DNA from: a virus
DNA length: 21,789 nt
Reading direction: 5' to 3' (one strand)
IMG/VR virus record: IMGVR_UViG_3300006334_000200
Coordinates: 1-21,789 of that record
How positions within the stretch are numbered: position 1 is the stretch's first letter; each line of letters starts with the position of its first letter. Shown here piece by piece: positions 11,112-20,544 of the stretch. A program made the translations under genes and the position numbers. The notes below the pieces were generated by a model. That model saw nothing but the letters and a program-made list of their open reading frames with translations, had not been told where the DNA came from and made no database searches.

Positions 11112-11293
11112 TAGTTAACCTCCATCCATTTGATGTCTGCCTTGGTGCCTACCTTGAAAATACAGACGCGATCCATTGTATCGGTTGCCATGTCAAGTGC
11201 TGTGTCCTCAGCGGATGCGAAGTCGTTCTTAAATTCAGCACCTATCAATACTTGGTTTCCCCAGTGTGAAGGTTGGATTGCCCATGTTGTCAT
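11111..11293 (-). CDS. Small protein of unknown function (60 aa), first gene of a dyad-promoter operon
   Basis: I start at ATG 11293 (MTTWAIQPSHWGNQVLIGAE) with AGGAG nine bases upstream; the frame stays open further back but that part is the promoter. The protein reads as one compact alpha/beta domain ending VCIFKVGTKADIKWMEV. The dyad promoter -10 (TACAAT, 11324-11329) gives a leader of roughly 24 bases. The stop overlaps the next start. Function unknown. Confidence 0.78.
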   Translation of the reverse strand: MTTWAIQPSHWGNQVLIGAEFKNDFASAEDTALDMATDTMDRVCIFKVGTKADIKWMEVN

Positions 11294-11323: not shown

Positions 11324-11384
11324 ATTGTAAACGATTTTCTGAGAAAAAATAGCATTGATTGTGACACAAATTATATTGTCACAC
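11324..11384 (-). promoter_or_regulatory. Dyad promoter G
   Basis: Minus strand: arm GTGTGACAA, spacer TATAATTT, arm GTGTCACA (11360-11384), then 30 bases to TACAAT (11324-11329). TGTGACA and TGTCACA are perfect inverted repeats. No -35 match is visible. It drives the gene at 11293. Part of the eight-member set described in findings. Confidence 0.72.
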
Positions 11385-11402
11385 CAGACCGCGACGGTCT
11401 GG
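11384..11402. terminator. GC-rich hairpin abutting dyad G, possible terminator
   Basis: Perfect eight-base arms CCAGACCG and CGGTCTGG around a three-base loop. It begins where dyad G ends and lies 17 bases after the stop of the upstream minus-strand gene (11419). There is no T-run, so it may be a weak terminator or insulator. Confidence 0.45.
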
Positions 11403-11418
11403 GCGGCTCGTTTGACGC

Positions 11419-11574
11419 TCAAGTAACAGACCTCCTAAACTCTAGACATATCTCTTTGAAATAGTCCATGTCCTCTGCTGACACATAGTCTGCTCCGTCC
11501 TCTCCGAAATAAGAGAATGTTTCATTCACTCTCTTAATAAAGGTAAGCAATGCGATTTCGTTTGGTGTGTACAT
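11419..11574 (-). CDS. Small acidic protein (51 aa)
   Basis: I start at ATG 11574 (MYTPNEIALLTFIKRVNETF), two bases after the upstream stop, rather than an upstream start at 11601 that would overlap that gene. The second half is acidic (SYFGEDGADYVSAEDMDYFK). Second gene of the operon from dyad promoter E. A perfect hairpin follows its stop. Function unknown. Confidence 0.72.
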   Translation of the reverse strand: MYTPNEIALLTFIKRVNETFSYFGEDGADYVSAEDMDYFKEICLEFRRSVT

Positions 11575-11576
11575 GA

Positions 11577-11744
11577 TTAGTGCCTGTCTGAGATGTACCA
11601 TACCCCATAAGCATTTAATCTTTGGGGTTCAAAGTTTCTCTTCGCCATTGCGTCGAGTGTTGCCTTAACAACTGGATTGTCCATTGCTGTTTGGTTAGCA
11701 AGTACCTTTCCGTCGTAGATAGGTCTTAATTGAGAGTCAAACAT
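11577..11744 (-). CDS. Small basic protein (55 aa)
   Basis: I start at ATG 11744 (MFDSQLRPIYDGKVLANQTA) because the upstream part of this open frame is the promoter (TATAAT at 11769-11774). It continues NPVVKATLDAMAKRNFEPQR and ends NAYGVWYISDRH. The leader is short and the ribosome site weak (AAGAAAAC). No family recognised. Confidence 0.72.
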   Translation of the reverse strand: MFDSQLRPIYDGKVLANQTAMDNPVVKATLDAMAKRNFEPQRLNAYGVWYISDRH

Positions 11745-11768
11745 AGTTTTCTTGTTTGTTACTCTTCT

Positions 11769-11828
11769 ATTATACAAGGGACTACACATGCTGTGTGCCT
11801 CCAGTGGACAGTTTATCAACTGGTCTAT
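11769..11828 (-). promoter_or_regulatory. Dyad promoter E
   Basis: Minus strand: weak distal arm ATAGACCAG, spacer TTGATAAA, strong proximal arm CTGTCCAC (11804-11828), then 29 bases to TATAAT (11769-11774). No clear -35. Its proximal part lies inside the 3' end of the upstream coding region. It drives the genes at 11744 and 11574. Confidence 0.62.
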
Positions 11829-12060
11829 CTCCTGTTGCTTTCATGTCGCACTTCATGTAGTCTTTAACTTCCTCTACTACTTCGTCGAATGAATCGTCCC
11901 AATAGTTGCGAGCTTCCTCTAGGAACTCATGTTCACCCAGTTTGTCAAAGTAATTGAATAGGTCGTCAGCGACATACTCCTCTAGGTCTTTGGTGGACAT
12001 ATTGTCCACCATGCGTTCTGTTAAGAACTCTTTGAGTTCTAGTAGTAATTCTCTATCCAT
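11782..12060 (-). CDS. Small helical acidic protein (92 aa)
   Basis: Starts MDRELLLELKEFLTERMVDN and continues as mostly acidic helices (DLEEYVADDLFNYFDKLGEH, EFLEEARNYWDDSFDEVVEE). Similar helical proteins are widespread in phages as an unnamed family. The ATG follows the previous stop with no gap (TAAATG), so it is the second gene after dyad promoter B. Its 3' end contains dyad E, which explains the atypical DRPVDKLSTGGTQHV tail. Confidence 0.8.
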   Translation of the reverse strand: MDRELLLELKEFLTERMVDNMSTKDLEEYVADDLFNYFDKLGEHEFLEEARNYWDDSFDEVVEEVKDYMKCDMKATGDRPVDKLSTGGTQHV

Positions 12061-12573
12061 TTATAGATACCCTGCTACTTCACAACCTGGTTCATCATAG
12101 AACCACGATACAGACAAGTCGTCAAACTGTTCTCGAATGGCGTAACAAATCTCCTCTGGTGGCGACCATGCTGTATCAAATGTTACCGAAAATCCATGTG
12201 GCATGTCTGAGTCGTCTATATCCACACAGTAACAATCCCACTTCGTTCCCCAGTTATGGACTCGCCAGTTGTACCATCTGTCATCATTAACATCAGTACT
12301 AGGGAAATATAATCCCCTACCAAATCCCTTATCCTTATATACTGGCAACTCGCCTACTTCACCTCTAGCGTTAGAGAATGAATATTCTTTGACATCAGAC
12401 TCAGCAAGTGGCACTTCTGCCCAGTTTGGTTCGGGGATAAATGATCCAAACACTGTGTCGATTGGTTCTTTAATGTCATCTGCTAACCCTTTGTTGAAAA
12501 TAGAGTGCAGTTTGAGAATTGCTGTTGTGTCATCTGAGTAAAATTCTACTCGATTGTGGCAATGATTAGGCAT
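12061..12573 (-). CDS. Api92-like ferredoxin-fold protein
   Basis: A 170-residue protein with the layout of the Api92-like (DUF1281-type) phage/plasmid family: MPNHCHNRVEF start, a central acidic/aromatic region, and a C-terminal block WYNWRVHNWGTKWDC then VTFDTAWSPPEEI. The WxNWxxxxWGTKWD and TAWSPP signatures are the strongest clues. Molecular role is unknown. AAGGAG three bases before the ATG is a close ribosome site. It is the first gene after dyad promoter B, about 25 bases downstream of the -10, so it is probably early. Confidence 0.78.
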   Translation of the reverse strand: MPNHCHNRVEFYSDDTTAILKLHSIFNKGLADDIKEPIDTVFGSFIPEPNWAEVPLAESDVKEYSFSNARGEVGELPVYKDKGFGRGLYFPSTDVNDDRWYNWRVHNWGTKWDCYCVDIDDSDMPHGFSVTFDTAWSPPEEICYAIREQFDDLSVSWFYDEPGCEVAGYL

Positions 12574-12597
12574 AGACTCCTTAGTTGTTATATACTA

Positions 12598-12657
12598 ATT
12601 GTATCACCTAGAAGGTGATAAATTTGACCAAAATGGACACTAATATAAGTGGCACAC
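12598..12657 (-). promoter_or_regulatory. Dyad promoter B
   Basis: Minus strand: arm GTGTGCCAC, spacer TTATATTA, arm GTGTCCAT (12633-12657), then 29 bases to TACAAT (12598-12603). A second perfect stem, TATCACCT TCT AGGTGATA (12602-12620), overlaps the -10. No -35 match. It drives the Api92-like gene. Confidence 0.7.
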
Positions 12658-12703
12658 AACCAGCTGATTGTGATCATGTATTTTGTTATAATGGAGGTAG
12701 AGC

Positions 12704-12871
12704 TCATAATTCCTCTATGTCCTCTATGACCCATTCGCCTGCATATTCGTCCTCAACATCGAATGCATTAACGTTCTTATGCAGTAGCTCCTCGGCTTCC
12801 TGCATTGTCTCTGCTTCGACTAATACGGTGAAGTAATTCACCTCTGAGCATTGGATTCTAAACTGGTTCAT
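12704..12871 (-). CDS. Small acidic protein (55 aa)
   Basis: Starts MNQFRIQCSEVNYFTVLVEA, then ETMQEAEELLHKNVNAFDVE and an acidic tail. The beta-beta-alpha pattern with ETMQEAEELL resembles a small phage family I cannot name. It overlaps the upstream gene by 14 bases, with AAAGG upstream of the ATG. Third gene of the operon from dyad promoter A. A plus-strand -10-like box just past its stop could make antisense RNA. Confidence 0.78.
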   Translation of the reverse strand: MNQFRIQCSEVNYFTVLVEAETMQEAEELLHKNVNAFDVEDEYAGEWVIEDIEEL

Positions 12872-13064
12872 ACTTTGTTACCTTTGATACAAAATGAAGA
12901 TCATTTACTAGGAACCCGCTGCTCTCTGAGAGTTTCTCGCATAGGTCGTTTAAGTTTTCTGCGTCCCACTCACCGAGATGATCTTCGGTTAGTTGTTCGC
13001 GGTTTTCTTTGGAGATCCACTCCTCATCGAATGCGAAGTGGATCTGGGTTATAAAGTATTTCAT
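12858..13064 (-). CDS. Small protein of unknown function (68 aa)
   Basis: I start at ATG 13064 (MKYFITQIHFAFDEEWISKE) because it overlaps the upstream stop as ATGA. The frame also has an upstream ATG at 13091 inside that gene. It has a beta-strand start and the pattern LGEWDAENLNDLCEKLSESS. The beta-alpha layout resembles that of the next gene, so the two may be distant relatives. Function unknown. Confidence 0.77.
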   Translation of the reverse strand: MKYFITQIHFAFDEEWISKENREQLTEDHLGEWDAENLNDLCEKLSESSGFLVNDLHFVSKVTKYEPV

Positions 13065-13351
13065 TTGAATGCAACCTCTCTCATATCGCATGAGTACATA
13101 ACTGCATCCTGTCTGAATTGCTGTTTGTATGCTTCACCAACTTCAAACAATGCTTCCTCGTACTGTTTACCTGTAACAGATATGCAGACGATTGCTTCCA
13201 TTGTTCCCTTGTATATGCCCATACCGTGTGTTATGGTTGCATACTCAAGTCTGGTTAACACTTCATTCTTAATGAACTCGTCTAACATTTGATTAGTAAC
13301 GGTTCCGCTGTCTTGAATGTTGCGTCCGACTGTTAGTGTGGTTGTTTCCAA
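13061..13351 (-). CDS. Small protein with TTG start (96 aa)
   Basis: The TTG at 13351 is chosen because GAGG lies seven bases upstream (CGAGGTCAACC TTG) and the frame has no ATG until residue 22. It carries an N-terminal helix (GTVTNQMLDEFIKNEVLTRL), a beta pair (MEAIVCISVTG) and a final helix (YEEALFEVGEAYKQQF). First gene after dyad promoter A. The leader nearly matches that of the TTG-start gene at 14048. Function not recognised. Confidence 0.77.
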   Translation of the reverse strand: METTTLTVGRNIQDSGTVTNQMLDEFIKNEVLTRLEYATITHGMGIYKGTMEAIVCISVTGKQYEEALFEVGEAYKQQFRQDAVMYSCDMREVAFK

Positions 13352-13377
13352 GGTTGACCTCGTTGATTTATATCTCT

Positions 13378-13438
13378 ATTATAAACACCTAGCCCTGAGT
13401 TTGTAAGGTGATAGTGTGCACAAATAAAAGTGGCACAC
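13378..13438 (-). promoter_or_regulatory. Dyad promoter A, minus direction
   Basis: Minus strand: arm GTGTGCCAC, spacer TTTTATTT, arm GTGCACAC (13414-13438), then 30 bases to TATAAT (13378-13383). A partial -35 TTACAA lies 17 bases from the -10. GTGTGC and GCACAC also form an inverted pair. It faces the TTG-start gene at 13351. Confidence 0.72.
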
Positions 13439-13475
13439 TCAATGCACCATACACTGCACGGTTTGCTATTATAAT
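13414..13475 (+). promoter_or_regulatory. Dyad A used in plus direction, apparently leaderless
   Basis: From the plus side the arm GTGGCACAC ends at 13438; TATTAT begins 28 bases later (13467) and overlaps TATAAT (13470-13475). The ATG of the plus gene is at 13479, so transcription would begin at or just before the start codon, implying a leaderless or near-leaderless message. No -35. Confidence 0.55.
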
Positions 13476-13478
13476 AAT

Positions 13479-13682
13479 ATGAAAAACTTCCAAGAATTTA
13501 TCGACTACTGCCTTGACTTCTACGGGTGGAATGGTCTATACGACCAAGGTCGAACACGTGAGCAAATTGCTTACGCTACATTATACTATCTCGATTCATG
13601 TAATGATCAAATTACGTGGGGATATGGGGACTCACTCGATAGAGAGCGTGTCCGTGACATTATGAATGAATTGTACGATTAA
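13479..13682 (+). CDS. Small acidic protein (67 aa), head of plus-strand island
   Basis: Starts MKNFQEFIDYCLDFYGWNGL and has GRTREQIAYATLYYLDSC then WGYGDSLDRERVRDIMNELYD. It reads as a compact helical domain. No ribosome site precedes the ATG, which lies four bases after a TATAAT box, so it may be translated leaderless. The next gene's ATG overlaps its stop. Similar small proteins occur in T4-like cyanophages as I recall; function unknown. Confidence 0.78.
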   Translation: MKNFQEFIDYCLDFYGWNGLYDQGRTREQIAYATLYYLDSCNDQITWGYGDSLDRERVRDIMNELYD

Positions 13683-13912
13683 TGGCACATTGCGACGTTT
13701 GCGGTAACTTTGATGATTCTCATTTCGAGGATCTCAAAGAGACCTACCAGGATATAGATATGGATGCATATCAGCCTGATTTGTATTACTATTGGGATGC
13801 ACCACTCGATGAGGATTATTCCTGGCGAGATGAGCTACCTAATGCAGATTGCCTTTGTGAAATCTGTTTTGACATATTAAATAGTGAAAACAAGATCCAA
13901 TGGCTAAACTAA
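13682..13912 (+). CDS. Small zinc-finger-like acidic protein (76 aa)
   Basis: Two cysteine pairs bracket the protein: CDVC at residues 4-7 and CLCEIC near residues 57-62, the spacing of a split zinc site. Between them is an acidic, Tyr/Trp-rich stretch (DIDMDAYQPDLYYYWDAPLD). The ATG overlaps the upstream stop (TAATG), so translation is coupled. Zinc binding is inferred from Cys pairs only; the role is unknown. Confidence 0.78.
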   Translation: MAHCDVCGNFDDSHFEDLKETYQDIDMDAYQPDLYYYWDAPLDEDYSWRDELPNADCLCEICFDILNSENKIQWLN

Positions 13913-14031
13913 AAAAGAGACCACAGCTGCCCCGCATGCCTGTGGTCATCACCCCAGACCATGTGACACTTACAAATAGTGTCCACTGCTGTCCCAAATG
14001 TGGGCACAAATGGTCTACAATAGAAAAGTAA
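13900..14031 (+). CDS. Zinc-ribbon microprotein (43 aa)
   Basis: Starts MAKLKKRPQLPRMPVVITPD and ends with a CCPKCGHKW knuckle. One clear CPxCG pair is present with nearby His/Cys as possible extra ligands, and the N-terminus is basic. It overlaps the previous gene by 13 bases. Its second half contains dyad promoter F, so this DNA serves as both coding sequence and promoter for the next gene. Confidence 0.68.
   Translation: MAKLKKRPQLPRMPVVITPDHVTLTNSVHCCPKCGHKWSTIEK
13962..14021 (+). promoter_or_regulatory. Dyad promoter F (plus strand, inside a coding region)
   Basis: Plus strand: distal arm TGTGACACT (one base longer than usual), spacer TACAAATA, proximal arm GTGTCCAC (ending 13986), then 29 bases to TACAAT (14016-14021). 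No clear -35. It drives the gene at 14048 and is the only member fully inside an ORF. Confidence 0.62.
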
Positions 14032-14047
14032 ACAACCGAGGTAAACC

Positions 14048-14281
14048 TTGAAATTAAACTCAATCGCTAAGAACCAAACTGAAATCACCCTCTCAAACGG
14101 TGATCAAATATTCTTCAGTTACAGGACCCCAGTCGCATGTTATATTGCACGTAAGGGACGTTATGCAAGAACAGATGCCTGGTTCTCATCAACCACTACA
14201 AGACACATTAACAAGTGGTTAGGTAACGTTGAATACGACACAATCCCACAATCTGCACTAGACATGATCACCACAGGGTGA
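14048..14281 (+). CDS. Conserved phage protein (DUF8033-like), TTG start
   Basis: The TTG at 14048 is supported by CGAGG seven bases upstream; no ATG occurs in frame near the start. The protein has the pattern NGDQIFFSYRTPVACYI, then a Tyr/Arg stretch and TTTRHINKWL near residues 49-58, which I associate with a small phage family (DUF8033 type) of unknown role. It has its own dyad promoter and ends just before an intrinsic terminator, so it may be expressed at a higher level than its neighbours. Confidence 0.82.
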   Translation: MKLNSIAKNQTEITLSNGDQIFFSYRTPVACYIARKGRYARTDAWFSSTTTRHINKWLGNVEYDTIPQSALDMITTG

Positions 14282-14305
14282 TCATCTAGGTATCATTTGA
14301 TACAA

Positions 14306-14339
14306 CAAAACCCGCCAGGTCATCCTGTGCGGGTTTTTG
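14306..14339. terminator. Bidirectional intrinsic terminator
   Basis: Nine-base arms AAAACCCGC and GCGGGTTTT enclose an inner CAGG TCAT CCTG stem, followed by T-runs in both directions. It lies between the stop of the plus gene at 14281 and the stop of the minus gene at 14349, exactly where converging transcription should end. Confidence 0.9.
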
Positions 14340-14348
14340 TGGGTGCAA

Positions 14349-14543
14349 CTAGACAATAGGAACCTGGTAACACAATCCTTCCATAACAAACCGATCCGCG
14401 AGCTCGTAGAGTTCAGGATACTGCGTGATCAGATCCGTGTCGAGCAAGAACTGGACGATTTCAACAGTGTCCCTCGGATCCTGCGTCCCTTGGTGATACT
14501 CTGCTATAATATCCTTATAGTTCATTGAATTAATCACTTTCAT
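14349..14543 (-). CDS. Small helical protein (64 aa)
   Basis: Starts MKVINSMNYKDIIAEYHQGT and continues mostly helical and acidic (RDTVEIVQFLLDTDLITQYP, ELYELADRFVMEGLCYQV). The ATG overlaps the end of the preceding ORF by 14 bases. Last gene of the operon from dyad promoter C; the bidirectional terminator lies just past its stop. Function not recognised. Confidence 0.77.
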   Translation of the reverse strand: MKVINSMNYKDIIAEYHQGTQDPRDTVEIVQFLLDTDLITQYPELYELADRFVMEGLCYQVPIV

Positions 14544-14691
14544 AGTATTTATTCTTAGATTGGGACTTAATTCTCTTATTATTAGATATCATATCACTAT
14601 ATCCAGATCTCTCAAGATCCTCCAATTCGTTCATTTCTCTCATTTTCTGTGAGAATGACTCTTTTTTGTATCTTTTGCTACTTTTACCCAT
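14530..14691 (-). CDS. Small basic protein (53 aa)
   Basis: Starts MGKSSKRYKKESFSQKMREM and continues NELEDLERSGYSDMISNNKR, ending in a basic/acidic tail. AGGA lies right before the ATG, which is two bases after the previous stop. The basic N-terminus could contact nucleic acid. It has the look of a conserved T4-like cyanophage small protein from memory. Function unknown. Confidence 0.73.
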   Translation of the reverse strand: MGKSSKRYKKESFSQKMREMNELEDLERSGYSDMISNNKRIKSQSKNKYYESD

Positions 14692-14693
14692 TC

Positions 14694-14993
14694 CTATACT
14701 ATTTGAGATAAAGTACCACTTCTTACCAATTCGTTAAATCTCTTCCCTAATGAAATATGTTGTTCCTTTACAAACTTTTCTATCTCTTTCACAAATTCTG
14801 AGAGGTTCTCAGTATAATTGTAAAAGTATTCAGTATCTCTACCTTGGAATATTATACCCACTTTCCCATCTTTTATTTGGATCTGATTAATAGCTGTACT
14901 TATCTCAGCAATGTCAAAAACGACATCTTTTACCACTTTCCGCGACTTTCTGCGTTTTGTAGCAGTTTTTACCTTTTTCGCAGTTTCTGTCAT
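14694..14993 (-). CDS. Small protein with basic N-terminus and KTSC-like core (99 aa)
   Basis: The N-terminus is Lys/Arg-rich (KKVKTATKRRKSRKVVKD). A short alpha/beta core follows (STAINQIQIKDGKVGIIFQG then YFYNYTENLSEFVKEIEKF), which vaguely resembles KTSC-type domains that occur near nucleic-acid enzymes. That resemblance is weak. First gene after dyad promoter C; no classical ribosome site. Confidence 0.75.
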   Translation of the reverse strand: MTETAKKVKTATKRRKSRKVVKDVVFDIAEISTAINQIQIKDGKVGIIFQGRDTEYFYNYTENLSEFVKEIEKFVKEQHISLGKRFNELVRSGTLSQIV

Positions 14994-15018
14994 GTTTCGT
15001 TGTTTTCGTTATATTCTA

Positions 15019-15077
15019 ATTATATCAGACATTCTCGGAGAAATCAACCATAGTGGACAGAAATATTACTGGCACAC
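15019..15077 (-). promoter_or_regulatory. Dyad promoter C
   Basis: Minus strand: arm GTGTGCCAG, spacer TAATATTT, arm CTGTCCAC (15053-15077), then 28 bases to TATAAT (15019-15024). It also has a recognisable -35, TTGATT, 17 bases from the -10. It drives the three-gene operon from 14993. Confidence 0.75.
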
Positions 15078-15199
15078 TCTCGCTTGACTTTCGAGTGACC
15101 GCAGGCTTAGATGGAGAATCCTCCGCACATTCTGAAGGTATTCTGTACATATTCTAAGGTCACTCTATTCTCACTATAGAACGCTCAGATACATTTAAT
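15078..15199. other. Non-coding stretch with inverted and direct repeats
   Basis: No gene is apparent on either strand. It contains an eight-base inverted pair GAGTGACC and GGTCACTC (15093-15100 and 15158-15165), a small GGAG AATC CTCC stem, and at its left-to-right end a ten-base direct repeat ACATTTAATT (15191-15200 and 15203-15212). On plus, TTGACT (15084-15089) and TTAGAT (15107-15112) sit 17 bases apart, a weak promoter-like pair. Confidence 0.5.
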
Positions 15200-15406
15200 T
15201 TAACATTTAATTAAAGCATCATTTGTAGTCCCATGCTCTGAATAAGTAGAAGCATCGTCCAACAAAATAGTTAAATTCTTGAAAGGACCATAGAATGCCT
15301 TAGAGTTATCATAACTCCAAAAGTGCCCCTTCCGCGTCTTTTTGGTAACTATTGAGACTGACCCCATTGATGTTGAGATCACTGTCTTGTTTGCTTGGTT
15401 CCACAT
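15200..15406 (-). CDS. Small protein of unknown function (68 aa), overlapping its upstream gene
   Basis: The ATG start at 15406 gives MWNQANKTVISTSMGSVSIV; an internal ATG at 15367 would give 55 residues. The core VTKKTRKGHFWSYDNSKAFY then GPFKNLTILLDDA looks like a real folded phage protein. It overlaps the end of the 106-residue ORF by about 98 bases in another frame, a long overlap for this genome. No strong ribosome site. Function unknown. Confidence 0.62.
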   Translation of the reverse strand: MWNQANKTVISTSMGSVSIVTKKTRKGHFWSYDNSKAFYGPFKNLTILLDDASTYSEHGTTNDALIKC

Positions 15407-15629
15407 AGGACTTAATGAGTTTAACTGATGACCAGAGATGACGATAGATCAGTATGTTCACTGCTCGTACTGTACCCTCTGTTCCTTCTATTGTTAAAGT
15501 AAAGTATGATGATGGTGTATGGTTATGTATGTGAGACTTAGTTGCTATACAAATACAATTTACATAGCCACGATACCCATCTACTTCCACTAAATCCTTT
15601 GCTTTGAACTGTAGTGGCATAGCATCCAT
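15309..15629 (-). CDS. Small protein of unknown function (106 aa)
   Basis: Starts MDAMPLQFKAKDLVEVDGYR; the first ~70 residues (GYVNCICIATKSHIHNHTPS, SYFTLTIEGTEGTVRAVNIL) look like an SH3-like or small beta barrel, common in cyanophage accessory proteins as I recall. The last ~35 residues lie in the overlap with the next ORF and may be a frame extension rather than conserved. A TCTAAATA octamer ends 14 bases before the ATG. An alternative start is ATG at the fourth codon. Confidence 0.68.
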   Translation of the reverse strand: MDAMPLQFKAKDLVEVDGYRGYVNCICIATKSHIHNHTPSSYFTLTIEGTEGTVRAVNILIYRHLWSSVKLIKSYVEPSKQDSDLNINGVSLNSYQKDAEGALLEL

Positions 15630-15643
15630 ATCAATACTGACTC

Positions 15644-15651
15644 TATTTAGA
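15644..15651 (-). promoter_or_regulatory. Possible late promoter (TCTAAATA)
   Basis: The octamer TCTAAATA is one base from NATAAATA and ends 14 bases before an ATG, almost the same spacing as the exact octamer at 7890-7897. It would allow late expression of the gene at 15629. Confidence 0.4.
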
Positions 15652-15661
15652 TTGGGTGCGA

Positions 15662-15695
15662 GAAAACAAAACGTACACGAAGGTAGTTTGTTTTC
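15662..15695. terminator. AT-rich stem-loop after the helicase/oxygenase operon
   Basis: Perfect nine-base arms GAAAACAAA and TTTGTTTTC enclose a 16-base loop. It lies 24 bases past the 2OG-oxygenase stop. The stem is AT-rich, but the minus side ends in GTTTTGTTTTC, so weak termination is possible. Confidence 0.4.
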
Positions 15696-15718
15696 CCTAC
15701 GAATAGTATAGCATATGA

Positions 15719-16363
15719 TTAGAGTCCTGACAAGGGCTTTATGACACTTTGTTTACTGTCACCCTTGTTACTCTTTGTTAACCATCCAAGTGGTATATTA
15801 TCCATATCTACTGTCATATTGAATGAGGCTACAGTTCTCTGTACATCACTCTCATTCAACTGTGTGTAATGTAGTATGAATGATGGGAATAGCACGAGAT
15901 CTCCTTCCTCTACCTCTGGCATATAGTTTAATTGCATTCCAGTAACAAAATGATTGAAGGGAGATACAAATACAGTGCTTGTATGTACTGTTGGGTCATA
16001 CTCAATGTAGAGTACTGCTGACCATCCTCCATGTCCATGTGTATGTGGTGGATGATGGTTCTTATATAATGCTCTCTCGAACCATGCTCTCACTATTTGT
16101 GGGTCAGCATTGAGGTCATGTGCGAACCACTCCATTTCTTCCTTGAGTAGTTCACGTATACGATTCAGATAGTTAGGAGTATCATATAGTCCCATCTGAT
16201 GCTCTGCTGTCAGTGTGTCATACTCTCCATAGTCTGAGTACACTGATTCCTCACCCATAGTCAATGTCTGTTCATTGAGTAGAGCGAGGAAGTCCTGTTT
16301 CTTCTGTTTCCAATTAGTACACCTATACTTAACGATAGGTATACTAAACATGTTCTCAATCAT
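15719..16363 (-). CDS. 2OG-Fe(II) oxygenase superfamily protein
   Basis: I start at ATG 16363 (MIENMFSIPIVKYRC), one base after the helicase stop, giving 214 residues. The C-terminal half shows the double-stranded beta-helix pattern of phage 2OG-Fe(II) oxygenases: a His cluster PHTHGHGGWSAVLYI (H107, H109, H111), a distal His in LFPSFILHYT (H165), and Arg176 with SFN at 180-182 for 2-oxoglutarate. These enzymes hydroxylate protein or nucleic-acid substrates using Fe(II), O2 and 2-oxoglutarate; many T4-like cyanophages carry several, mostly with unknown substrates. It shares a transcript with the helicase. The exact acidic iron ligand is not certain from sequence alone. Confidence 0.8.
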   Translation of the reverse strand: MIENMFSIPIVKYRCTNWKQKKQDFLALLNEQTLTMGEESVYSDYGEYDTLTAEHQMGLYDTPNYLNRIRELLKEEMEWFAHDLNADPQIVRAWFERALYKNHHPPHTHGHGGWSAVLYIEYDPTVHTSTVFVSPFNHFVTGMQLNYMPEVEEGDLVLFPSFILHYTQLNESDVQRTVASFNMTVDMDNIPLGWLTKSNKGDSKQSVIKPLSGL

Positions 16364-16364
16364 A

Positions 16365-17087
16365 TTAAATCCATGCGGTTGCGGGTCTACCCTTAGTGAA
16401 GATAGTATCAACTGTTGCCTGTACTCTCTTGGCAGTTGCCTTACCATAGTTAGAGTATACTGGTATACTTATAAACCCTGTTGGTTTACGATAGTTGTGA
16501 TAAGCACGAGGTTGTAGTGTACCATCACTCACTCTCTGTCTATCCTGTGTGTCAAGTCTGATTACACGTCCGATAGTCTGTGCCATTTCAACTGTCGATA
16601 GGTTACGTAACAGTACAACATTTGTCAGACCATGTACATTGATACCTTCTGACAATATACTGTAATGAAACAGTACGAACTTCTGACCAGTATTACTGAA
16701 GTTATCAAGTGTCTCAAAGAATACTGTACGTGATACCTTCTTACCATTGATGATAGCACCATGCTTAGATGTAATTGTCATGACATTATAGTCTGATTGA
16801 CGTAACTCACGGAATAGATCTGTGAATGCCATCATAGCATTGATAATACGTGCTGACGGTGCTGATACTAAAACTCTCTCAGCATCATCTGCCTGTATGA
16901 CTCTCAATACTGTCTCAGCATCAATGTCTGCTACCTCTTCACGTGTTCTTACAGTGTCCACTGTGTGTACATTTACTGTCGGAGGTATGATAGCACCACA
17001 ATCAAGTAACTCGTCGGCACTCACTGTGATTAAGTTGTTACCATATACATCAACATTATTCATGCCACGCTCGTGCTTTGCTGACAT
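16365..17087 (-). CDS. SF2 helicase, C-terminal half (separated by a frameshift)
   Basis: This frame holds the second RecA-like domain of an SF2 helicase. Visible parts are VLVSAPSARIINAM, KFVLFHYSILSEGINVHGL (motif V region) and VEMAQTIGRVIRLD, a textbook motif VI with QxxGRxxR. The listed start is ATG 17087 (MSAKHERG), but the frame is open back to 17135 and there encodes RKYFFTATPK, i.e. motif III, which belongs to the same enzyme. So this is the second part of one gene with 17060-17599. Its stop is one base from the oxygenase ATG. A separately translated half would lack ATP-binding motifs. Confidence 0.85.
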   Translation of the reverse strand: MSAKHERGMNNVDVYGNNLITVSADELLDCGAIIPPTVNVHTVDTVRTREEVADIDAETVLRVIQADDAERVLVSAPSARIINAMMAFTDLFRELRQSDYNVMTITSKHGAIINGKKVSRTVFFETLDNFSNTGQKFVLFHYSILSEGINVHGLTNVVLLRNLSTVEMAQTIGRVIRLDTQDRQRVSDGTLQPRAYHNYRKPTGFISIPVYSNYGKATAKRVQATVDTIFTKGRPATAWI

Positions 17088-17599
17088 TTTAGGTGTAGCA
17101 GTGAAGAAATACTTACGTCTGCCTGTGATGCGACCTCACTTGTAGCCTCAAAAAAATTGCGTTGCGTAGTGTTGTGTGCTTCGTCACAATAGAAAGTGTC
17201 TACGAAAAACTCGTTATTTGCTATCTTGTGAAGACTATGATATGTAGTGAATAGTATTACATGAGCACCGAATGTATGAGCACTGCTTACAAACTTCATG
17301 ATGTCCTGCTGTGAGGTCACTGAATAGAATGGAGAGTCACCACTGTGTACACTACCAATCTTGTAGTTAGATACACTGTTGAGTATCTCATTGAACTCAT
17401 TCGCAAGTTGTAGTGCTAGCATAATACGTGGAGCAGCAACTACAGTAAGTGTAGGATAGTCACTCTGAACTAACTGAGTACGTAAGTCCTCAATCATACA
17501 AATAGTCTTACCACCACCAGTAGGAATATACACTGTACCATGCTCATTCGCATATAGTGCGTCGATAGTTCTCTCTTGATGTGGTCTGAGTGATAACAT
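17060..17599 (-). CDS. SF2 helicase, N-terminal half (frameshifted)
   Basis: I start at ATG 17599 (MLSLRPHQERTIDAL), with AAGGA four bases upstream and TATAAT 22 bases away. Residues 26-32 are PTGGGKT (Walker A), residues 139-142 DEAH (Walker B), followed by NTTQRNFFEATSEVASQAD. After the GAC codon for that last Asp (17117-17119) the frame loses family similarity and stops at 17060. Adding one base there would join it to RKYFFTATPK in the other frame, giving a single helicase of ~420 residues, similar in type to short UvsW/ResIII-like phage helicases. It is either a true indel pseudogene or a sequencing/assembly error. Confidence 0.85.
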   Translation of the reverse strand: MLSLRPHQERTIDALYANEHGTVYIPTGGGKTICMIEDLRTQLVQSDYPTLTVVAAPRIMLALQLANEFNEILNSVSNYKIGSVHSGDSPFYSVTSQQDIMKFVSSAHTFGAHVILFTTYHSLHKIANNEFFVDTFYCDEAHNTTQRNFFEATSEVASQADVSISSLLHLKCQQSTSVA

Positions 17600-17620
17600 A
17601 GCATCCTTGTTGTTATCACT

Positions 17621-17680
17621 ATTATAATGTAATTTGATAGTCAATTCATGTCCTAGTGTACACTTATTCTATTGTCACAA
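17621..17680 (-). promoter_or_regulatory. Dyad promoter H
   Basis: Minus strand: arm TTGTGACAA, spacer TAGAATAA, arm GTGTACAC (17656-17680), then 29 bases to TATAAT (17621-17626). TTGACT occurs 12 bases from the -10, too near for a normal -35. It drives the helicase/oxygenase operon and overlaps the 3' end of the metallopeptidase gene. Confidence 0.7.
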
Positions 17681-18107
17681 CACCTTCGTAGATTGCTCTG
17701 TTAGCAATATATCTCTCCCATGCTCTCGCATCTATCTCCCATGGTTCATCCCAATACTTAGTGAAGGGAGACACCACTTTCTTATTCCATGTACTACTAC
17801 CATCTGCCTTCTGTTTCCACTCTCCCTTGACACGTTGTTTCACGTGTACCATTTCATGTGCGAGTGTGACTAGGTAATCCCATTTACTGAGACCATAGTG
17901 TACATGTATTTCAAAGAACCGAGGACGTGTAGCACTGTCCAGACATAGCATCTGACCGTACATACATTCTCTCTTTAATCCCTTGGTTACAACATGGAAG
18001 TCAAGTTTATACCGTTTGCCGATATACTTGTCCACGAACCAATCAATGAAGGAGTCTGTGATAGTGACTCTGCGATGATGACCCGAATAGAAGATAGAGT
18101 GAGACAT
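17664..18107 (-). CDS. SprT-like zinc metallopeptidase
   Basis: I start at ATG 18107 (MSHSIFYSGHHRR), 147 residues; an upstream TTG at 18125 is less likely. The zinc site is in LAHEMVHVKQ (H84, E85, H88), the HExxH of gluzincin/SprT-like peptidases, and a probable third ligand Glu lies in EPWEIDARAWE. A preceding beta strand (FFEIHVHYG) matches the SprT layout. Phage proteins of this type are not assigned a substrate; DNA-protein crosslink or host-protein processing is possible. It follows the small ORF at 18156-18308 and is followed by dyad promoter H. Confidence 0.85.
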   Translation of the reverse strand: MSHSIFYSGHHRRVTITDSFIDWFVDKYIGKRYKLDFHVVTKGLKRECMYGQMLCLDSATRPRFFEIHVHYGLSKWDYLVTLAHEMVHVKQRVKGEWKQKADGSSTWNKKVVSPFTKYWDEPWEIDARAWERYIANRAIYEGVVTIE

Positions 18108-18155
18108 AACCAGTGTAAAAACCAAATAAAAGAAACGACGAATGCTAACCTCATA

Positions 18156-18308
18156 TTACTCTTCATACTCCCCCTTCAATATAACTAACTTTCTATACAA
18201 CTCGACCCCATCAATGTCCTTGGGTTCCTCTGCTTCCATCATTAGACCAAGCAGATAGTCTATTTCAGCAGACTCAAGTGGTCTTCTGATTATCATAGGT
18301 GTGATCAT
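18156..18308 (-). CDS. Small protein of unknown function (50 aa)
   Basis: Starts MITPMIIRRPLESAEIDYLL and has an acidic Met/Glu-rich middle (GLMMEAEEPKDIDGVELYRK). GAGGA seven bases before the ATG is one of the best ribosome sites in the window, and it lies 13 bases after the methyltransferase stop. It probably belongs to the same operon. Family not recognised. Confidence 0.77.
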   Translation of the reverse strand: MITPMIIRRPLESAEIDYLLGLMMEAEEPKDIDGVELYRKLVILKGEYEE

Positions 18309-18321
18309 AATAAAATCCTCG

Positions 18322-19209
18322 TTAGTTTAATTGTAACGTATTAAAGTCCAGTGGTGTGAACTCAGTGGGCACTTCGGCAACCGAACACCTCTCTTCTGCT
18401 ATTCTAACATACTCTGGTTGTTTTTCAATACCTATGAATGACCTCTCTGTTGGTAGAGTTGCCACTCCTGTAGTTCCTGACCCGCAGAATGGGTCGAGTA
18501 CAGTTCCCTTCTCAGGGCAATAGATCTTAACCAACCACTCCATCAATGCTACTGGTTTAACAGTAGGATGATCATTGTTCTCTCCCTTCTCCTTACGTGT
18601 AGCACGTGGAGCATAGAAATACTTTTGGTGCTCAGGTAATACATTACCCACTATGTTGCTTGGGTATCTGCCTTTTGGATTAGCATCTACCTTACCAAAC
18701 TCCTTCTGTGTGCCTGTTGTCTTACCATCCTTACCGAATGTCCTACGCTTGACACCTCCTGCTACCCATCCTGTTGGTGGTTTACCATCCCAAGGTACAC
18801 GTGCGTCCTCTATATTGATCTTACCCACACCATACTTGGCATAGTTCTGTTCAATACTACCTTCACATGGTCTCTGTGCTACCACAATAGGTTCATGTGC
18901 GGGTTTGAGTCTGTTAGTCTTAGGCATCTTGGTAGTTACCATCCACATGATCTGATCTTTGATCTCAAATCCTGCGTCCTCAACTGCCACTGCCATCCTA
19001 TGATATAGTTGTGGACTACAAAACGATAGCAAAAAAGCACCAGGTTTCATTGTCCTGTATACTTCTTGCCATAGTTCTACTGTAGGTACACTGTAGTCCC
19101 AGTGTTCCATACCCATACCATATGGAGGGTCAGTGATACAACAATCAAATGAGTGGTCATCCCACCCATCTAACTCTGCCTTGGCATCATTTGAAGAAAT
19201 TAAATACAT
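18322..19209 (-). CDS. Beta-class DNA methyltransferase (N6-A or N4-C), partner of the nuclease-like gene
   Basis: I start at ATG 19209 (MYLISSNDAKAELDGW), which lies in the end of the upstream nuclease-like gene. Motif IV DPPYG is at residues 27-31, a HEP..AQRP target-recognition-type region follows, and the AdoMet-binding motif I DPFCGSGTT is at 239-247. The order IV then I defines the beta class of amino-methyltransferases, which add methyl to adenine N6 or cytosine N4. DPPY leans towards adenine but is not decisive. The immediately upstream gene is a PD-(D/E)XK candidate, so it may protect phage DNA from that enzyme or from host restriction. Confidence 0.93.
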   Translation of the reverse strand: MYLISSNDAKAELDGWDDHSFDCCITDPPYGMGMEHWDYSVPTVELWQEVYRTMKPGAFLLSFCSPQLYHRMAVAVEDAGFEIKDQIMWMVTTKMPKTNRLKPAHEPIVVAQRPCEGSIEQNYAKYGVGKINIEDARVPWDGKPPTGWVAGGVKRRTFGKDGKTTGTQKEFGKVDANPKGRYPSNIVGNVLPEHQKYFYAPRATRKEKGENNDHPTVKPVALMEWLVKIYCPEKGTVLDPFCGSGTTGVATLPTERSFIGIEKQPEYVRIAEERCSVAEVPTEFTPLDFNTLQLN

Positions 19210-19756
19210 TCTGTTCGCATGTAGTTCTGTCCTTATGTGTAAAGTAATCAGTATATTCTGACGTACCACTCTGTATGTACATCTCTCTTAGATAGAAATC
19301 AAATCCTCTATCATCCTGCCACTCTGGTAGTGCTTGATAACGTACGAGTACATCTTTCATTTCTAATAACATTCTATCATATAATTCTCTCTTGTCCAAG
19401 GTGAGTATGTCATCACCCCAAAACAATGTAGTCTCATTGTATTTCTGACTTGTGAATACATATAAACCATCTGCGTGTGGTCTCCCACTGTTGTACATTG
19501 GTTTAGCATTCTTGTTAGATTTACACTCTAGGTTAATAATACCCCATCGTGTAGGTATTTCATAGTCAGGATAGTTCTGAGTACCATTGGGTTGATAGGT
19601 ATAATGTATACCATACTCGTCTAGTATCTCTCCAATTCTCTTTTCATGGTCATCACCATTTGCCCAAGGTAGATTCTTGAATCGAGTCAAGAGATCTACC
19701 ATACGGTTACCATCTAGCATAGGTGTTGTACCACCTACATTGTTTAGTTTCATCAT
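19187..19756 (-). CDS. PD-(D/E)XK restriction-endonuclease-like protein
   Basis: A 189-residue protein with the nuclease core in order: Glu38 in HEKRIGEIL, PD at 63-64 (NYPDYEIP), a strand, then ECK at 77-79 in IINLECKSNKNAKP. PD-x12-ExK with a basic tail after the Lys is classical for type II endonucleases. Downstream, GRPHADGLYVFTSQKYNETT resembles conserved stretches of some such enzymes, though I cannot name the family. The gene overlaps a DNA methyltransferase by 23 bases, the gene pair arrangement of a type II system. It could attack unmodified host or rival phage DNA. Specificity and activity are inferences. The start overlaps the upstream stop as ATGATGA. Confidence 0.75.
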   Translation of the reverse strand: MMKLNNVGGTTPMLDGNRMVDLLTRFKNLPWANGDDHEKRIGEILDEYGIHYTYQPNGTQNYPDYEIPTRWGIINLECKSNKNAKPMYNSGRPHADGLYVFTSQKYNETTLFWGDDILTLDKRELYDRMLLEMKDVLVRYQALPEWQDDRGFDFYLREMYIQSGTSEYTDYFTHKDRTTCEQNVFNFFK

Positions 19757-20031
19757 GAGTATGGACTCACAATAGTATCTCCCTTACGTGGATATGCTGC
19801 CACCTCTGGGTCTGGGTCTAACCACTTGACATACTCTCTGTCTTCAATACAACAATCTAGTTGTGCTTGACTATCGAGATAATACATGTCGTAGTATCTC
19901 TTTTGTATGTCATTGAACTTTTGGATACGGAAGTCAGGTGCTCCGTTCTCCTCTAGTAGTCCTTTTTGTACGAAGCGATAAGGATAACGCTCTAAGATTA
20001 CTTCAGTTTTAGTCACGTGTTTTACCTCCAT
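19753..20031 (-). CDS. Small protein of unknown function (92 aa)
   Basis: Starts MEVKHVTKTEVILERYPYRF and includes DFRIQKFNDIQKRYYDMYYL, ending VAAYPRKGDTIVSPYS. It is alpha/beta in appearance with many Tyr. The ATG abuts the preceding stop (TAAATG) and its own stop overlaps the nuclease-like start. This position between a promoter-proximal gene and the nuclease makes it a candidate controller or immunity-type partner, but nothing in its sequence shows that. Confidence 0.77.
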   Translation of the reverse strand: MEVKHVTKTEVILERYPYRFVQKGLLEENGAPDFRIQKFNDIQKRYYDMYYLDSQAQLDCCIEDREYVKWLDPDPEVAAYPRKGDTIVSPYS

Positions 20032-20463
20032 TTACATGTATAAGTGACCACCCGCCCAATCAATTTGATCAGGGTCGTGTAAGAACTCTCTGTCCTTGAT
20101 GATTCTCATGTCAAATCTGACATGTTTAGCAGGGTTCTGCCAAGATGCTGCCTTGTATACCTCTCCAGTATGCTTGTCAATGAATGCGTGTACAGAACCA
20201 AGTCTGAATCTGTTGTCATCTTCATCAAATGTCTGATATACAATCTTGAAGTACTTGCGTCCTTCAAGTGCTTTCCATGTGTAGAGATATCTTGCGTCTC
20301 TAGTCTTGACATTACGTAGTTGATCAATAGCATGATCAGTGTATCTACCTTCAGAGATCATTCTCTGATATGTGTCAACCTGATGGTTGTAGAAGTTGTC
20401 ATTGAGAGCAGTGATGTAGTCTGCTGTCCACTCTTTAACTTTTGTGTCTTGTAAGTTGCTCAT
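20032..20463 (-). CDS. Conserved phage protein of unknown function (143 aa)
   Basis: The C-terminal half carries a pattern I recall from many T4-like cyanophage proteins: KYFKIVYQTFDEDDNRFRLG, then VHAFIDKHTGEVYKAASWQN and PAKHVRFDMRI. The fold is unnamed to me (DUF7717-like in memory, not checked). AAGGAG two bases before the ATG marks the start. It is the first gene after dyad promoter D and leads the operon that contains the nuclease-like and methyltransferase genes. Confidence 0.82.
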   Translation of the reverse strand: MSNLQDTKVKEWTADYITALNDNFYNHQVDTYQRMISEGRYTDHAIDQLRNVKTRDARYLYTWKALEGRKYFKIVYQTFDEDDNRFRLGSVHAFIDKHTGEVYKAASWQNPAKHVRFDMRIIKDREFLHDPDQIDWAGGHLYM

Positions 20464-20486
20464 AGCTCCTTGATTTGTATATTCTT

Positions 20487-20544
20487 ATTATAGAGCCTAG
20501 TCAACTGAGATGGGAAAATAGTGGACACTTTTTTAACTGTCCAC
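20487..20544 (-). promoter_or_regulatory. Dyad promoter D (most symmetric copy)
   Basis: Minus strand: arm GTGGACAG, spacer TTAAAAAA, arm GTGTCCAC (20521-20544). GTGGACA and TGTCCAC are perfect inverted repeats. TATAAT lies 28 bases on (20487-20492), with no good -35 at 17 bases. It drives the operon 20463 to 18156. Confidence 0.75.

Follow-up and report, generated by a model that had tools for sequence, protein, structure and literature searches.

Which protein, of the phage or of its host, would act on a dyad that stands at one fixed distance from the −10 box at ten promoters of a virus of ocean cyanobacteria? The stretch of DNA analysed here (the window) is the virus record IMGVR_UViG_3300006334_000200 from IMG/VR with a length of 21,789 nucleotides (21.8 kb), and its closest named relatives are T4-like Prochlorococcus phages, for example P-HM1, P-HM2 and P-SSM4. 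A first-pass annotation had described eight dyads of 24–25 bases in it. All eight were found again at their coordinates, each of them ending 28–30 nt from a TAYAAT box, and both lengths do occur, but 24 bp is the correct length for most of them. Read towards the promoter, the eight sites have the form TGTGMCA-N10/11-TGTCCAC followed by 28–30 nt and then TATAAT or TACAAT. We could add a ninth dyad at 15740–15763 as well as a divergent promoter on the plus strand at the dyad 13414–13438, which goes beyond the earlier account. The dyads, their −10 boxes and their genes are located as follows:

11360–11383, minus strand: dyad of the weak, symmetric type; −10 box TACAAT at 11324–11329, gene start ATG at 11293
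11804–11827, minus strand: dyad; −10 box TATAAT at 11769–11774, gene start ATG at 11744
12633–12656, minus strand: dyad; −10 box TACAAT at 12598–12603, gene 12061–12573 (DUF1281_C)
12687–12692, plus strand: second TATAAT, 30 nt beyond the far side of the dyad 12633–12656, on the plus strand without a downstream gene
13414–13438, not assigned to one strand: dyad common to two divergent promoters; minus-strand −10 box TATAAT at 13378–13383, gene start at 13351
13467–13475, plus strand: divergent −10 box for the dyad 13414–13438, either TATTAT at 13467–13472 (28 nt) or TATAAT at 13470–13475 (31 nt); gene 13479–13682
13962–13986, plus strand: dyad with a spacer of 11 nt; −10 box TACAAT at 14016–14021, gene 14048–14281
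15053–15076, minus strand: dyad; −10 box TATAAT at 15019–15024, gene 14694–14993
15740–15763, minus strand: dyad overlooked in the first-pass annotation; −10 box TATACT at 15705–15710 (29 nt), gene 15309–15629
17656–17679, minus strand: dyad; −10 box TATAAT at 17621–17626, ORF of a DEAD/ResIII-type helicase with ATG at 17599
20521–20544, minus strand: dyad; −10 box TATAAT at 20487–20492, gene 20032–20463 (DUF7717)

As had been claimed, the promoters precede small genes of the early type as well as the helicase gene and, at 20.5 kb, an operon. The dyad at 20521–20544 shows the top symmetric score within the window and the gene 20032–20463 is apparently the first one in its operon. The gene 13479–13682, which is read on the plus strand from the divergent promoter, is perhaps leaderless, and the TATAAT at 12687–12692 on the plus strand might possibly start an antisense transcript. 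The helicase (16365–17599, minus strand) is present as two overlapping ORFs, 17060–17599 and 16365–17087, and this split suggests a frameshift or a sequencing error.

Such sites could be chance matches, or a hairpin or terminator that is transcribed and unrelated to initiation, and indeed our initial strict, hand-made pattern gave no clear excess over shuffled sequences; the later models were drawn from related contigs. With a scoring model built from IMG/VR contigs only, seven of the eight window sites reached scores of 28–36, and the site at 11360 was weaker (15.6) because it belongs to the symmetric type TGTGACA/TGTCACA. When the symmetric dyad alone was used for the scan, seven dyads of the window scored at least 15, compared to 0, 0, 1, 1 and 0 in the shuffles, and the TAYAAT boxes near the window dyads were all 28–30 nt away. 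Scanning IMG/VR for the dyad followed by 26–32 nt and TATAAT resulted in at least 120 stretches, but only 10 were obtained from the entire IMG/VR with the spacing shifted to 46–52 nt. This control refutes chance as the explanation and the position of the dyad upstream of the predicted start speaks against a transcribed hairpin, making both hardly credible.

Among the matches listed, the distance from the dyad to the −10 box was 28, 29 or 30 nt in 123 of 132 cases (26–32 nt being allowed), and the spacer was 10 nt long in 112 and 11 nt long in 20 of the 132. Columns left unconstrained by the search proved to be symmetric as well, with STT on the left and AAS on the right, and the dyad therefore extends to TGTGNCAGTT-N4-AACTGNCACA. 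No −35 consensus was present in 120 unique related promoters. A purine is located 6 nt past the −10 box and represents the predicted +1, so that the dyad spans roughly −65 to −42. The claim of one dyad at a fixed spacing hence holds for a phage-wide promoter class, as the spacing in related genomes stood up against the shifted control.

Regarding the distribution of this class among named phages, Syn9, P-TIM40, P-HM1, P-SSM4 and S-PM2 possess more dyads than their shuffles, with −10 boxes mostly at 28–32 nt, and the same sites are present in P-SSM2, where they were counted without a shuffle comparison. The freshwater phage S-CRM01 has 24 dyads and weaker −10 boxes; its region from 121 to 158 kb contains many near-perfect symmetric dyads, with TATGCT and TATTCT as weak boxes some 29 nt away. 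No excess of dyads over shuffles was detected in T4, S-TIM5, PSS2, P-SSP7 and Ma-LMM01. Syn9 has five strong sites clustered at 43–49 kb and P-TIM40 has most of its sites at 45–55 kb, and in both phages small unknown genes, helicases and methyltransferases are found directly downstream of these sites. A cyanophage-like contig of 189 kb, filed under the host single-cell genome Prochlorococcus sp. AG-418-C09, carries sites and genes close to those of the window, including the sites at 13962 and 15053.

The dyad is also present in cyanobacteria themselves. A scan with one genome per species located it at 21 places with cyanobacteria being over-represented, and the symmetric dyad occurs in 12 of 117 genomes of the cyanobacterial phylum, mostly as one copy each (about 0.4 expected by our own estimate). 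At one of these places, the gene of an Rfam Cyano-1 (Yfr2) RNA starts 40 nt past a full dyad. We compared 25 picocyanobacterial yfr2 copies, allowing up to two mismatches to TGTGNCAGTT, and found this half-site 64–66 nt upstream of the RNA 5' motif GTGAGGAG in eight of them (six exact, two with 1–2 mismatches; about 0.04 expected per position), while it is missing there in about two thirds of the copies. Relative to the predicted +1, the phage dyad begins about 65 nt upstream and thus at the same position. In the yfr2 promoters a good half-site is often paired with a degenerate one, or the half-sites stand in another order, whereas the phages have the full dyad.

The element of the yfr2 promoters has been named CGRE1 and is confined to them in MED4; the promoters bearing it are bound by PMM1637, a GntR regulator present in all cyanobacteria that mediates the induction of Yfr2 under nitrogen starvation and high light (PMC6778093). 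PMM1637 is treated as PlmA, a PII-PipX-binding protein that thioredoxin reduces (PMC6243067, PMC7344720). A search for the GntR domain PF00392 gave no hit in 12 phages and exactly one in each of three hosts, as would suit a regulator supplied by the host. When picocyanobacteria are compared with distant cyanobacteria, PlmA shows 78% identity in its DNA-binding domain and 42% in the rest of the protein, and the recognition helix TGLHRNTISKVY is invariant among nine aligned proteins, a conservation to be expected if a single operator serves the entire phylum. The phage dyad is best read as a CGRE1-type element, an identity that comes from our own yfr2 alignment and not from the published CGRE1 consensus. 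The dedicated regulator proposed in the first-pass annotation finds no support, as the dyad matches the host element in sequence and position and as these phages are devoid of a GntR gene.

Taken together, we consider it probable that the dyads are copies of CGRE1 and that PlmA bound to them activates the early promoters of T4-like cyanophages from −65 to −42. In this model the phage would have copied the host operator of PlmA, normally located before the sRNA gene yfr2, into its early promoters. PlmA, being already in the cell at infection, would bind the dyad and assist initiation by the host RNA polymerase and its principal sigma factor at promoters having a good −10 box and no −35. Many small takeover genes, the helicase and the nuclease/methyltransferase operons might in this way come simultaneously under one host factor, and the symmetry of the dyad could allow it to serve two divergent genes. 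We infer the binding of PlmA to the phage dyads, its activating role there and the early timing of the genes from sequence comparisons.

An activator encoded by the phage, either packaged in the particle or synthesised immediately, might bind the dyad instead, with the likeness to yfr2 being convergent or the host site having been taken over. This would go along with the complete composite promoter being found only in phages, as a search of 300 Cyanobiaceae genomes detected it in no host chromosome and only on one phage-like contig, and with the phage sites being more regular than those of the hosts. However, besides the lack of a GntR gene in the 12 phages, the families common to all carriers and absent from the other phages include no obvious DNA-binding regulator when inspected by eye, and the hosts already have the half-site and its position, with distant cyanobacteria having the dyad. 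We therefore regard a phage-encoded activator as rather unlikely. The dyad might also be an operator for repression, by which PlmA or a phage product would silence the early promoters at a later stage of infection. Repressors are common in the GntR family, and dyads at −42 to −65 would be compatible with either role. Repression is nevertheless quite improbable, as there is no −35 consensus, the site is clear of the −10 box and the start, and the induction of Yfr2 is described as being mediated by PMM1637 (PMC6778093).

In several cyanobacteria, apparently filamentous ones, a conserved intergenic unit consists of the dyad, a ATGCAAGGAGTGATACC-like start and, about 150 nt further on, a terminator-like end in which a T run accompanies a GC-rich inverted repeat (stretches L282–L290, around 1501–1522, on the minus strand except for L283 and L289). 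This unit is unannotated and gave no Rfam match, and it is possibly an undescribed small RNA controlled by PlmA. A perfect symmetric dyad in a member of the Cyanobiaceae (L277, 1501–1522; G038:C1:114042) is located 176 nt upstream of an integrase-like ORF, perhaps indicating a mobile island or satellite that obeys the same regulator. Dyads in Moorena before an RtcB-like gene and before an IS607 recombinase-like gene were rejected, since the −10 spacing was absent or they were single matches.

Doron et al. are said to have described in 2016 a novel early-gene element in Syn9 and P-TIM40 that is conserved in T4-like cyanophages. Because Syn9 and P-TIM40 both carry the dyad in the expected place, ahead of clustered small genes, it is very probably identical to this element and thus already described. 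Steglich is reportedly among the authors of that study and also co-authored the PMM1637 work, so that the link between phage and PlmA may be published too; no statement of it was found in the literature searched, which does not show that none exists. With CGRE1 being named for yfr2 (PMC6778093) and with the early element reported for Syn9 and P-TIM40, there is no support for the view of the first-pass annotation that the dyad is undescribed: this uncultured phage adds new sites, but the element itself is very probably a known one. More tentatively, T4-like cyanophages might run their whole early programme via PlmA by multiplying a near-unique yfr2 operator, tying the start of infection to the nitrogen and redox signals reported for PlmA, and this link might be unpublished; we see this as possible but doubtful.

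With this reading, an anonymous dyad gains a named host factor that can be tested. If the model is true, infection of the commonest phototrophs of the ocean depends in its first step on PlmA with its reported links to PII-PipX (nitrogen status) and thioredoxin (redox), and it might become possible to test directly why these infections are light- and nutrient-dependent. In addition, the dyad could be used as a simple sequence marker of early promoters in uncultured cyanophages.

Compared to known promoter systems, NtcA, CRP and MotA, which the first-pass annotation had dismissed, were rejected again by both sequence and spacing. The NtcA box (GTA-N8-TAC) lies about 22 nt from the −10 box, whereas TGTGNCAGTT-N4-AACTGNCACA is found at 28–30 nt, and in the CRP/SyCRP1 box (TGTGA-N6-TCACA) the gap is 6 nt compared to 14 nt from TGTGA to TCACA in the phage dyad. 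The middle promoters of T4 resemble the class described here in having an extra element in place of the −35 in a T4-like phage, but MotA is encoded by the phage and its box is located at −30 instead of −65 to −42, and the T4 genome is without such dyads. The late promoters of P2/186 activated by Ogr-Delta likewise lack a good −35 and have an activator dyad with its centre near −55, but in their case the activator is a phage-encoded zinc finger, the genes are late and the sequence is a different one. With CGRE1 of yfr2 (PMM1637/PlmA/Sll1961) the phage element shares the half-site TGTGNCAGTT and the position, along with a DNA-binding domain of the regulator conserved across cyanobacteria. The difference is one of number and completeness, as the host has very few sites, often with one good half, whereas the phage has about 6–20 full dyads, each at about 28–30 nt from a −10 box.
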